A stretch of DNA of 26,433 nt from the NCBI GenBank assembly GCA_026785785.1, contig JAJAZI010000003.1:1-26433 (forward strand), in the 5' to 3' direction. Origin of the DNA: Microbacteriaceae bacterium. GTDB taxonomy: Bacteria > Actinomycetota > Actinomycetes > Actinomycetales > Microbacteriaceae. Each line of letters begins with the position of its first letter. Within the stretch, counting starts at the first letter, position 1. The position numbers and the translations under genes are program-made. Shown in pieces: positions 6,584-10,107 of the stretch. Under the pieces are notes generated by a model. The model searched no databases. It was not told the DNA's origin and was given only the letters and a program-made list of their open reading frames with translations.

Positions 6584-7018
6584 TCAGCGCAGGCTGACGC
6601 GAACCTGCGCCTTCCCGAGTACGGTGCCGCCGTGCGCGGTGACGGTGAGGTCGATCCGCGCCTCCCCGGCATCCGGGTCGAGGGCTCCGACCTTGGCAAC
6701 GACCGCGATGCCGGCCCCCTCGATCGGATCCACGACGACCGGGCGGGTGAAGCGAACGCCGTAGTCGACGATGCGTCCGGGGTCGCCGAGCCAGTCGACG
6801 ACGGACTGCACTGCAATGCCCATCGTGAGCATGCCGTGCGCGAGCACGCCGGGAAGGCCGACGGCCTCGGCGACGTCGTCGCGATAGTGGATGGGGTTGA
6901 AGTCCCCTGATGCCCCCGCGTAGCGCACGAGGCCGTCGCGGCTGATGCGGTAGTCGGCGTCGGCGACGACCTGACCGATCTCGAGCGCATCGAGGCGAGG
7001 TGTGGTGGGGGTGCTCAC
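6584..7018 (-). CDS. MaoC-like hydratase/dehydratase, catalytic subunit (HadB-like)
   Basis: A hot-dog-fold enoyl-CoA hydratase or 3-hydroxyacyl-ACP dehydratase of 144 residues. The hydratase-2 motif is intact: YAGASGDFNPIHYRDD with Asp39 and His44, followed by GLPGVLAHGMLTMG. Its GTG start (7018) overlaps the stop of the preceding gene in GTGA, so the two are translationally coupled. The partner lacks this motif, matching the mycobacterial HadA/HadB arrangement of one catalytic and one supporting subunit. Its position near murB and the tRNA-Trp-secE-nusG block resembles the mycobacterial had locus, but Microbacteriaceae have no mycolic acids, so general fatty-acid metabolism is more likely. 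Confidence 0.9.
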   Translation of the reverse strand: MSTPTTPRLDALEIGQVVADADYRISRDGLVRYAGASGDFNPIHYRDDVAEAVGLPGVLAHGMLTMGIAVQSVVDWLGDPGRIVDYGVRFTRPVVVDPIEGAGIAVVAKVGALDPDAGEARIDLTVTAHGGTVLGKAQVRVSLR

Positions 7019-7461
7019 GCGTCACCCCGCACGACGAGAGTGGAGGAGGCGGTGACGACGTGGCTGCCCGTCGCATCGACGATGGAGGATTCGGCGGTCA
7101 CCATGGCGTTGGCTCCGAGGGTCTTGATGCTCGTCACCGAGAGAGTCGCGGTGAGTTCGTCGCCGGCCACGATCGGCCTCGAGTAGCTGAACCGCTGCTC
7201 CCCGTGCACGATGCGGCTGAAGTCGATTCCGGCATCCGGTACGGCGAGCAGCTGCGCGAGGGTCGACTCCTGCACGACGACCGCGAAGGTGGGCGGCGCG
7301 ACGATGTCGCGGTAGCCGGCTGACACCGCCGCAGCGGGATCGTGGTTAATCGGGTTGGTCGCGAAGACGGCGCGGGAGAATTCGCGCACCTTCTCGCGAC
7401 CGACGAGGTAGGGATCGGTTGGGGCGAAGACGCGGCCCTGCAGTTCTGGGTTCACTGGCAC
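7015..7461 (-). CDS. MaoC N-terminal-type dehydratase subunit (HadA-like, non-catalytic)
   Basis: A 148-residue hot-dog-fold protein that probably pairs with the next gene. The sequence (PELQGRVFAPTDPYLVGREKVREFSRAV, then NPINHDPAAAVSAGYRDIVAPPTFAVV) matches the N-terminal MaoC dehydratase family, whose members lack the GDxNPxH catalytic motif; it is absent here. GTG 7461 is chosen, giving VPVNPEL. The frame is open further up but would run through the terminator at 7511-7545. A TAGGCT box lies 7 nt before the chosen GTG, which suggests a leaderless mRNA; GTG 7455 is an alternative start. Confidence 0.85.
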   Translation of the reverse strand: MPVNPELQGRVFAPTDPYLVGREKVREFSRAVFATNPINHDPAAAVSAGYRDIVAPPTFAVVVQESTLAQLLAVPDAGIDFSRIVHGEQRFSYSRPIVAGDELTATLSVTSIKTLGANAMVTAESSIVDATGSHVVTASSTLVVRGDA

Positions 7462-7474
7462 GCTTGCCAGCCTA
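7459..7474 (-). promoter_or_regulatory. Leaderless-type -10 box of the HadA-like gene
   Basis: On the minus strand TAGGCT (7474-7469) is followed by GGCAAGC and the GTG start. It separates the MaoC-MaoC-murB transcription unit from the microprotein unit just upstream, which ends at the terminator at 7511-7545. No convincing -35 was seen. Confidence 0.45.
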
Positions 7475-7510
7475 ACCAATGGTGCCCGACGGAAGCCGAG
7501 CCGTCGCAAT

Positions 7511-7545
7511 GCGAAAGGTCCGGCCATCGTCATGATGGCCGGACC
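7511..7545 (-). terminator. Intrinsic terminator of the microprotein unit
   Basis: A perfect 12-bp stem, GGTCCGGCCATC paired with GATGGCCGGACC, around a 5-nt loop (7529-7533). On the minus strand it is followed by TTTCGCATT, a short U-rich tail as in many high-GC genomes. It begins 20 nt after the stop of the 26-residue peptide gene and precedes the promoter of the next gene. Confidence 0.85.
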
Positions 7546-7565
7546 CTCCGGGTGGACTTAGTCGC

Positions 7566-7646
7566 CTACTGGCAGCTGTCGCACTGCAGGAGGTCCATCG
7601 GGTCGACGGGGATTTCGTAGCCGCCTACGTTGTTGTCGTTGTCCAT
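7566..7646 (-). CDS. 26-residue microprotein with C-terminal Cys-x-x-Cys tail
   Basis: A short gene of no family that I recognise. The peptide begins MDNDNNVGGYE, continues through an IPVDP segment and ends DLLQCDSCQ. It is acidic, with the only two cysteines at positions 22 and 25, and has no signal peptide or membrane segment. Translation is well supported: GGAGGAGG at 7659-7652 sits 5 nt before ATG 7646. A dedicated promoter (7731-7760) and a perfect-stem terminator (7511-7545) bracket it, so it forms its own unit of about 210 nt. The asparagine-rich start and short CxxC tail could fit a metal-binding peptide, a redox peptide or a ribosomally made, modified peptide precursor. No modification enzyme is recognisable beside it; the neighbours are an SDR and MaoC dehydratases. 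Coding is likely, function unknown. Confidence 0.75.
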   Translation of the reverse strand: MDNDNNVGGYEIPVDPMDLLQCDSCQ

Positions 7647-7724
7647 GTTGGCCTCCTCCAAGCTCTGTTACCGATCGCACCGATCGGCTCCAGCAGTGCG
7701 GGGATCGAAACCCTCGCGTGCTGG
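7647..7724 (-). other. Structured 5' leader of the microprotein mRNA
   Basis: The predicted transcript would start near 7724, exactly at a long hairpin: CCAGCA (7724-7719) pairs with TGCTGG (7695-7690), with an inner GCG-GGG/CCC-GC stem. A second hairpin, CGATCG-GTG-CGATCG, occupies 7686-7672, and then comes the GGAGGAGG ribosome binding site. The inner loop (GGGTTTCGATCCC) looks like a tRNA T-arm, probably by chance. The two hairpins may protect the message or control access to the ribosome binding site. Confidence 0.55.
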
Positions 7725-7730
7725 ATCTCC

Positions 7731-7776
7731 ACTATATAACGCTAATGACACCCGTGTCATTCCACTACATGTAGTG
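7731..7776 (-). promoter_or_regulatory. Promoter with two adjacent palindromic operators
   Basis: On the minus strand ATGACA (7760-7755) as -35 is followed at 18 nt by TATAGT (7736-7731), or at 16 nt by TATATA (7738-7733). The -35 lies inside a perfect 8-bp inverted repeat, AATGACAC-CC-GTGTCATT (7744-7761). One base further is a perfect 14-bp palindrome, CACTACATGTAGTG (7763-7776). The first resembles operators of TetR-family repressors; the binding protein is not encoded next to it. Both palindromes sit just after the SDR stop codon, so they serve the microprotein gene. Confidence 0.7.
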
Positions 7777-7778
7777 TT

Positions 7779-9069: not shown

Positions 9070-9396
9070 TCAGCGAGCCCCGTGCGCCGTCGGGTTCGCT
9101 CCGGGCTCGTCGGAGAAGTGCAGCCCACCCGGGCTGTTGGCCGAGATCGTGAGCGCTTCAACCCACTCGCGGTTGATCGCCGGGATGCGGCTGCCGAAAT
9201 AGCGGAAGTAGAGGGGGATGCTCGAGTGCATCCAGATGCTGCTGCGCCCATCGCCCACGTCGAAGGCGTCGCGCCACGAGAACACGAAGCATTCCTGTCG
9301 GCGAAGCTTGGCGGAAATGACGATCTGGAGATGCATGAGCGCGCGGTCGTCGAACTCGACCTCCATGCTCGAGCTGCCGTACAGCAATTTACCCAT
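9070..9396 (-). CDS. Small conserved protein, first of two paralogues (DUF7882-type, Microbacteriaceae)
   Basis: A 108-residue protein starting MGKLLYGSSSMEVEFDDRAL and continuing HLQIVISAKLRRQECFVFSW, VGDGRSSIWMHSSIPLYFRYFG and AINREWVEALTISANSPGG. From memory, this matches a short family common in Microbacteriaceae that databases sometimes call ATP-dependent DNA ligase-like on weak grounds; no ligase motif is present. ATG 9396 is chosen because the similarity to the paralogue at 9763-10107 begins exactly there, preceded by AGAGGAAG. No signal peptide is seen. Function unknown. Confidence 0.8.
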   Translation of the reverse strand: MGKLLYGSSSMEVEFDDRALMHLQIVISAKLRRQECFVFSWRDAFDVGDGRSSIWMHSSIPLYFRYFGSRIPAINREWVEALTISANSPGGLHFSDEPGANPTAHGAR

Positions 9397-9762
9397 CGTG
9401 CTACGTCTTCCTCTTGTTTCTTTCCACGCTAACCACGCTATCCGCTCGAGCAGCTCTTCGCTCAATTATCGCCACGTGACGAGGGCGCGTCGCCCCATGC
9501 ACTGAAATCAATCCCTTGAGCATCCGGCGCGGCGAAAGCGTGACTGTGGAAATTCTGTAAGCCGAGATGGTTGAACCGACATGGCGCGAGTGCACCGCCG
9601 GCCTCTGGGAACCACCACGCGACAACGGGCCCCTCCGCTCGATCGAGGAGACGCGCGCATGCGGGTGAGTCCTCACGAACTCGCGCGACGACTGGCTGGA
9701 GAGCCTCTCGGTTCTCGAGAATGCGATGTGATGCCTGCCCGTCGCGGGGCGGGCCAAGGTCT
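9397..9762. other. Intergenic region between the two paralogues
   Basis: This 366-nt gap has no gene that I can support. Two overlapping short plus-strand frames (33 codons from ATG 9567, 35 codons from ATG 9659) exist. They have no recognisable content and no strong ribosome binding site in the first case. Part of the gap must hold the promoter for the 9070-9396 gene. Confidence 0.5.
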
Positions 9763-10107
9763 CTAACCGGTGATGCGTTGACCCTTGGGCTTGGGGTGAG
9801 CGGTCTCGCGGTCAGGCTCTGCGGTGAACTGCAGGCCCGAGACGCTGTCGGCCGACTCCATCAGGGCGACGATCCAGGCGCGGTTGATCGCGGATGCCCC
9901 GGAGTGAAAGTACCGGAAGAAGAGAGGGATGCCCGGGTCCATCCACACACTGCTCCGCCCGCTGCCGACGGTGAGCGAATTCGTCCAGCTGAAGAGGAAC
10001 CGCTCGTTGCGCCGCAGTTTCGACGTGATCACGATCTGCAGATGAGCCAGTGCGCGATCGTCGATGTCGATCTCCATGCCGTGGCTGCCGTACAGCAATA
10101 CGCCCAT
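9763..10107 (-). CDS. Small conserved protein, second of two paralogues (DUF7882-type)
   Basis: A 114-residue paralogue of the 9070-9396 product. It starts MGVLLYGSHGMEIDIDDRAL, then HLQIVITSKLRRNERFLFSW, VGSGRSSVWMDPGIPLFFRYF and AINRAWIVAL. Somewhat more than half of the aligned positions are identical by eye. It differs in a longer basic, proline-rich tail (TAHPKPKGQRITG). ATG 10107 is preceded on the minus strand by a GGGGGGAC stretch. Its separation by 366 nt with no shared upstream sequence suggests an old duplication with separate promoters. Confidence 0.8.
   Translation of the reverse strand: MGVLLYGSHGMEIDIDDRALAHLQIVITSKLRRNERFLFSWTNSLTVGSGRSSVWMDPGIPLFFRYFHSGASAINRAWIVALMESADSVSGLQFTAEPDRETAHPKPKGQRITG

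Follow-up and report, generated by a model that had tools for sequence, protein, structure and literature searches.

Ribonucleotide reductase (RNR) is an essential enzyme. Class I RNRs are reported to carry, almost without exception, a double-cysteine motif at the C-terminus (PMC9669993). Thioredoxin or glutaredoxin reduces this pair, which in turn is believed to return the active site to its reduced state (PMC5704485). Among the closest described systems are enzymes that work in pieces. The class II RNR of Pseudomonas aeruginosa is split into NrdJa and NrdJb, both of which are reported to be needed in vivo, and according to the same paper, from 2015, no other split RNR had been found in a non-viral organism (PMC4520616). 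The nrdA gene of Aeromonas phage Aeh1 is also split and the enzyme is reported to be functional (PMC2988022, PMC3653736). C-terminal fragments of a fungal RNR are likewise reported to act when expressed apart from the enzyme (PMC3618301). Here we describe a 26-codon gene in a 26,433-nucleotide stretch of DNA from a member of the Microbacteriaceae (the whole of which we call the window) that appears to encode the redox tail of a class I RNR as a free peptide.

Results

A conserved 26-codon gene in its own transcription unit

The predicted features of the gene and its surroundings are collected in Table 1. The original prediction, made from the DNA letters and a list of open reading frames, described a promoter, a leader with two hairpins, a ribosome binding site, a 26-codon frame and a terminator, and all of these parts are present on one strand. 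The two NrdR-like boxes around the promoter were not named in that prediction. The terminator stem is directly followed by TTTCGC, a short U run, and a GC-rich hairpin lies 3' of the stop codon in all six orthologues from the genus. The frame itself is kept in 6/6 same-genus genomes, the window's included. Uncorrected pN/pS over the 26 codons is 0.12 for the six genus orthologues, the corresponding uncorrected value for 31 standalone copies across the family is 0.34, and both cysteines of the CxxC motif are invariant in a 14-sequence alignment. The kept frame, these values and the post-stop hairpins show that the arrangement is not a product of chance, and loss of the frame in relatives, named beforehand as the outcome that would favour a non-coding RNA or nothing at all, is not what we find. 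The locus is well described as a regulated unit that is complete in itself and codes for a conserved CxxC peptide of redox type, of a sort that annotation tends to miss.

Table 1. Predicted features of the peptide locus (window coordinates)
Feature	Position	Strand	Remarks
Transcription unit, all parts	7517-7777	-	Boxes, promoter, leader, ribosome binding site, 26 codons, terminator
NrdR-like box 1, ACACTACATGTAGTGG	7762-7777	-	15/16 positions fit the NrdR consensus applied
NrdR-like box 2, TAGCGTTATATAGTGG	7729-7744	-	10/16 positions fit the same consensus; weaker box
Predicted sigma-70-type promoter, ATGACA-N16-TATATA	7733-7760	-	Assigned by eye; between and over the boxes
Leader with two predicted hairpins, ~7725-7689 and ~7688-7670	7670-7725	-	Fold of the window sequence only
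Ribosome binding site, GGAGGAGG	7652-7659	-	Strong; 5 nt upstream of ATG 7646
26-codon frame, MDNDNNVGGYEIPVDPMDLLQCDSCQ and stop	7566-7646	-	Predicted free RNR alpha-subunit tail peptide; ends CDSCQ
Terminator hairpin, perfect 12-bp stem, 5-nt loop	7517-7545	-	20 nt past the stop

The neighbours of the gene, judged by eye from their translations, appear to be a MaoC-type pair and an SDR. The expectation that relatives would hold the gene in this same setting was borne out in part: by a crude motif test that counts the window in both figures, the MaoC start was found at 3/6 genus loci, the SDR at only 2/6. The longest MaoC-like frame (7015-7533) has its ATG at 7533, inside the terminator stem; the real start codon probably lies downstream of this one. 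A near-palindrome, ATGACACGGGTGTCAT, separates the NrdR-like boxes at 7745-7760, and its first half is assigned to the predicted -35 site. Elsewhere in the window, two similar frames of 114-131 residues on the same strand (9070-9465 and 9763-10107) carry the motif YGSxxMExxxDDRAlxHLQIVI, the second of them near two tRNA genes.

Database searches with the peptide returned no match in NCBIfam and none in Pfam except one at E 0.3; an Rfam search of the whole window at the gathering threshold returned four tRNAs only and nothing at the peptide locus. It had been proposed that the gene specifies a metal-binding peptide, the precursor of a modified peptide or a dual-function small RNA. The CxxC motif, the hairpins and the small size are all that speak for these ideas. 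Against them stand the results of the Pfam, NCBIfam and Rfam searches, conservation at the protein level and homology to NrdA tails (below). We give this group of explanations next to no chance.

A tail detached from class I NrdA

When the window's own genome was searched, a second match (E 2e-5) came from a frame of 23 codons, which begins at the nrdA stop codon and has nrdB as its next gene. The NrdA encoded there is made up of ATP-cone, all-alpha and barrel domains; its sequence closes with ...RKGFGFGKPGA, and its last 200 residues are free of Cys. Three of its cysteines align with cysteines of solved class I enzymes, and these three we take to be the active-site set. The arrangement is general in the family: in all of the 30 first-fetched nrdA loci the last 200 residues of NrdA are free of Cys, and in all 30 a separate CxxCQ frame with the ending PxDPMDxLQCxSCQ stands behind the NrdA stop. 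The family consensus of the separately encoded tail is xVPVDPMDxLQCxSCQ. An nrdB-like start is present in 79 of 89 family nrdA stretches. A script found the linked frame at 82 of these 89 loci, which represent 91 genomes with NrdA minus G027 and G105, where the 3' end of nrdA is missing. The other seven comprise G014, where the linked peptide is present, five loci without a linked copy within 420-450 nt, and one cut by the contig end. In G014 (L167) the NrdA frame runs past the peptide in another reading frame and holds one Cys.

Outside the Microbacteriaceae the same element is found fused to the enzyme. Among the nearest 20 outside-family NrdA loci (L090-L109, 68-74% identical), 18 end fused in CPVDPQERLQCESCQ or close variants, nine of them in exactly ACPVDPQERLQCESCQ and the rest in close variants of it; in the remaining two, L101 and L104, NrdA runs off the contig. 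An nrdB-like start is present at all 18 fused loci. Eight more distant NrdA sequences (L111-L118, 39-42% identical) likewise have a fused tail, a variant of CSIDDPECEACQ. A profile built from free peptides only, run against 296 genomes of the class at E 0.1, matched 32 genomes besides the window's. Eighteen of these matches fall at the very end of long NrdA frames, that in G411 falls in a frame of 63 codons at a truncated nrdA, and the remaining 13 are partial, in other frames and chance-like. Because a partial, chance-type match in G481 (E 2.7e-4) outscores several true fused tails, the profile alone is weak at that score level, and it did not report the distant CSIDDPECEACQ-type tails.

The paralogue behind nrdA and the fused C-termini recovered by the free-peptide profile together identify the predicted gene product as a detached RNR tail, and its homology to the C-terminal redox tail of class I NrdA is, in our judgement, nearly certain. 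The peptide had been taken for an isolated and undescribed one, and in this respect the comparisons give a different answer. By sequence, the catalytic and disulfide-exchange parts of this RNR reside in separate genes, as in a split RNR, and the cognate NrdA keeps its presumed active-site cysteines with no terminal pair of its own.

In a FastTree phylogeny of 65 NrdA sequences (L110 from G457 left out), all 45 tail-less family sequences, drawn from the 91 genomes, form one clade with support 0.951, and the fused sequence L102, from the same order, stands beside it. A single tail-less clade next to a fused relative fits one detachment of the tail early in the group. A tail-less NrdA also occurs in another family: that of G457 (L110, L178) ends without Cys, and the genome holds a second PF02867 protein. 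No peptide match was found in that genome, none linked within 420 nt of nrdA, and no nrdB was seen by eye in the neighbourhood, which indicates that there the loss of the tail need not be made good.

One alternative is that within the Microbacteriaceae the tail ends up attached to NrdA, through programmed frameshifting or peptide ligation. Most linked copies do lie a short way past the nrdA stop, in 22 of the 89 loci stop and start codons overlap as TGATG, and the upstream frame is often open. However, the linked frame stands at an offset of 0, 1 or 2 relative to NrdA, in-frame stops intervene in several loci and the peptide can end more than 100 nt past the nrdA stop; the varying frames and intervening stops argue against a fusion or a single programmed frameshift. 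Nor can frameshifting serve copies that are not linked to nrdA, and five genomes (G020, G058, G127, G142 and G180) have no copy beside nrdA, a Cys-free NrdA end and unlinked copies as the only tail source found. We regard joining as very unlikely. Open frames of 486-1475 codons at some peptide matches, which at first looked like NrdA-tail fusions inside the family, proved to be out-of-frame GC-rich frames over nrdA and were set aside.

Co-occurrence with NrdA and standalone copies

Tail-less NrdA is present in 91 of 199 family genomes, and the peptide is found in 91/91 of these as against 3/108 genomes without NrdA, counts that rest on related genomes. Two genomes, G117 and G175, encode the peptide without any PF02867 match, and the RNR is probably missing from their assemblies. 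A peptide match in G145 (E 0.017, no NrdA) was treated as chance. Among the matches listed, a copy away from nrdA occurs in 87 of the 91 NrdA genomes, a figure that may be up to two too high, since in G105 and G186 the nrdA 3' end is cut and the sole match may be the linked copy; the four NrdA genomes that lack such a copy are drafts. Two copies in G130 (L052, L053), which lie apart from nrdA, have the peptide as the last part of a longer small protein, MSTLITDxNAVLTFTGQWARQEMADYI...

For the most part these genomes have no other PF02867 enzyme. NrdA is the sole PF02867 protein in 6/6 genomes of the genus, and a single PF02867 match occurs in 81 of the 91 NrdA genomes; ten have more than one, which are fragments in at least G059 and G128. 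Of the five genomes lacking a linked copy, four (G020, G058, G127 and G180) have one PF02867 protein each. In the reduced 0.93-Mb genome G020 (L189, L179) that sole protein is the tail-less NrdA, and the peptide gene lies ~33 kb from nrdA behind NrdR-like boxes.

NrdR-like boxes

The box pair in the window measures 33 bp start to start, and its 17-bp spacer agrees with the optimum of 15-17 bp reported for NrdR boxes in the part of the source available (PMC12051234). Pairs scoring at least 22 are found upstream of 31/32 standalone genes, and a box pair upstream of 29/30 nrdA genes, in both groups mostly 32-33 bp start to start. None of 3000 background segments taken within genes (coding only) reaches a score of 22, and 0.25% of 1600 mononucleotide shuffles do; in a random background, which contains true sites, the figure is 3.1%. 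The best-scored spacing is 33 bp at most standalone loci, 32 at L006 and 35 at L004, L008, L019 and L029, the scored pair at L019 being other than the canonical one. An extra copy in G001 (L009) has no box pair. The five genomes that lack a linked copy contain six unlinked ones, of which five have the pair and the sixth lies on a 30-kb contig of G127. A gene for NrdR itself was found in 12/12 genomes searched, including the window's. Taken together, these predictions suggest that the standalone peptide gene is probably under NrdR control, and a 26-codon tail gene is a probable new kind of NrdR target.

The standalone and linked peptides differ in a characteristic way. The residue after DPMD/DPME is L in 29 of 38 distinct standalone peptides, a sample biased by choice for likeness to the window and including some mobile copies, and D or E in 62 of 81 distinct linked peptides (L003, L090-L125 and L180-L188 were left out of this comparison). 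This pattern suggests an old duplication and some division of labour. Two further readings of the standalone gene take this difference as their starting point. In one, the standalone peptide is an inhibitor or modulator that occupies the tail-binding cleft of NrdA in competition with the linked peptide, much as Sml1 acts on yeast RNR. The distinct signatures would suit such a role, but the standalone form keeps both cysteines, its promoter type is common to nrdA rather than opposite to it, and five genomes have unlinked copies only; we consider this reading unlikely and give it a small weight. In the other, the standalone copy has drifted away from NrdA and now works with a different redox partner. 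That this second paralogue has a separate signature and a transcription unit to itself would suit such a case, but the co-occurrence with NrdA, the box pair common to both genes and the genomes where the search turned up no other source of a tail make the proposal highly improbable.

Phage and plasmid copies

Relatives of the peptide are also encoded on mobile elements. Three named phages carry it, in five records: Pontimonas phage phiPsal1 (E 0.009) and the Clavibacter phages CN1A and CMP1. The Clavibacter matches are weak (E 1 and 0.1) and were retained in view of the full motif there, with a stop behind it. None of the five phage records has an annotated feature at the peptide. Five Staphylococcus phage matches (E ~10), which lie in antirepressor genes and cover residues 8-21 only, were put down to chance and discarded. 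Nineteen plasmid records, with Clavibacter, Leifsonia and Gryllotalpicola plasmids among them, encode the peptide at E up to 0.2. One of them names a 33-residue copy 'ribonucleotide-diphosphate reductase subunit beta', so the link to RNR has already been made in annotation, with the wrong subunit. Neither a PF02867 match nor a box pair was found in the seven records searched (three phages, L119-L121, and four plasmids, L122-L125).

A collection of viral contigs contained 336 stretches that encode a relative of the peptide. Eighty of these were kept (L204-L283) and 79 parsed (all but L236). All 79 parsed copies are unfused to NrdA, none has the box pair and 77 have no nrdA signature in flanks of up to 3 kb; the other two, L270 and L279, match a loose nrdA regular expression. 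When 30 neighbour proteins from ten of the 80 loci were compared with PHROGs, nine of the ten loci gave a match to a phage family (terminase, portal, head, endolysin, holin, helicase, exonuclease or tail), which indicates that the contigs are phage-like; at L213 one protein was tested and gave no match. At several viral loci the peptide lies within ~2 kb behind lysis-type genes (endolysin or holin).

Discussion

Altogether, we favor an explanation in which the gene encodes a free copy of the NrdA redox tail that would act in trans as an electron carrier coupled to the enzyme through NrdR, with mobile copies that support the host RNR. We put the probability of this explanation as a whole at roughly 0.87. 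The peptide most likely works in trans by carrying electrons from a redoxin to NrdA. We envision a scenario in which the free peptide docks on NrdA and its CxxC pair reduces the active-site disulfide formed at each turnover, after which the oxidised peptide would be re-reduced by a thioredoxin- or NrdH-type protein. In-trans work has reportedly been done on yeast Rnr1. Such a peptide would be a small exchangeable electron carrier whose synthesis could be matched to that of RNR through the response of NrdR to dATP and ATP, although at 26 residues it may be short-lived in the cell. The phage and plasmid copies, which in the records examined come with neither NrdA nor the box pair, would probably keep the host RNR running during replication.

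A broader proposal concerns the NrdA-bearing half of the family, where NrdA is in most cases the sole class I/II RNR: its tail would there have become a minimal, diffusible 26-residue electron shuttle that is dedicated to RNR and has its own NrdR-controlled gene, and the NrdR-free copies on phages and plasmids would relieve a limit on electron supply to the host RNR. We lean towards this proposal, with less assurance than the explanation given above. If it is true, the phage and plasmid peptide gene would be among the smallest auxiliary metabolic genes, and the 336 matching stretches in the viral collection point to just such a tiny phage gene. A detached tail would also account for a class of overlooked small genes in one actinobacterial family. 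Furthermore, with a tail that is naturally free one can test directly how it finds the active site, whether it can serve more than one subunit and in what way dNTP synthesis is limited by the supply of electrons.

A detached class I tail did not appear among the best matches of a search of open-access PMC, the terms sought were absent from the RNRdb description (PMC2795772), and the accessible parts of the descriptions of phage split RNRs mention no detached tail (PMC3653736, PMC2988022). Judged from sequence, the arrangement described here would be a new form of split RNR. With the canonical NrdA tail the sequence element is the same and the chemistry presumably so, the difference being that in canonical NrdA the CxxC tail is reported as part of the subunit (PMC9669993, PMC5704485). 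The likeness to the NrdR regulon, as far as the accessible accounts describe it, lies in paired boxes about three helical turns apart and placed over the promoter (PMC9110341, PMC12051234). The predicted target here differs in being a 26-codon tail gene in place of an RNR subunit operon, and box 2 in the window is weak.

The phage split RNRs, exemplified by Aeh1, share with our system a large subunit made as separate polypeptides, and in the available portions of these reports the breaks in the phage's own RNR gene are attributed to introns, inteins, homing endonuclease genes and other interruptions (PMC2988022, PMC3653736). In the Microbacteriaceae, by contrast, only the tail is detached and the genes lie in bacterial chromosomes, and phages carry the tail without a PF02867 match (three phage records). 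A parallel to the proposed mechanism is NrdJa/NrdJb, where the cysteines for thiol-disulfide exchange are reported to sit on a polypeptide of their own, which acts on the catalytic subunit (PMC4520616). In the same account NrdJa/NrdJb is a B12-dependent class II enzyme, with an NrdJb of 229 residues encoded in one operon with its partner (PMC4520616). The system described here differs on each of these points: it is class I, its tail peptide has 26 residues, and the tail is encoded again in an extra standalone gene and in mobile copies.
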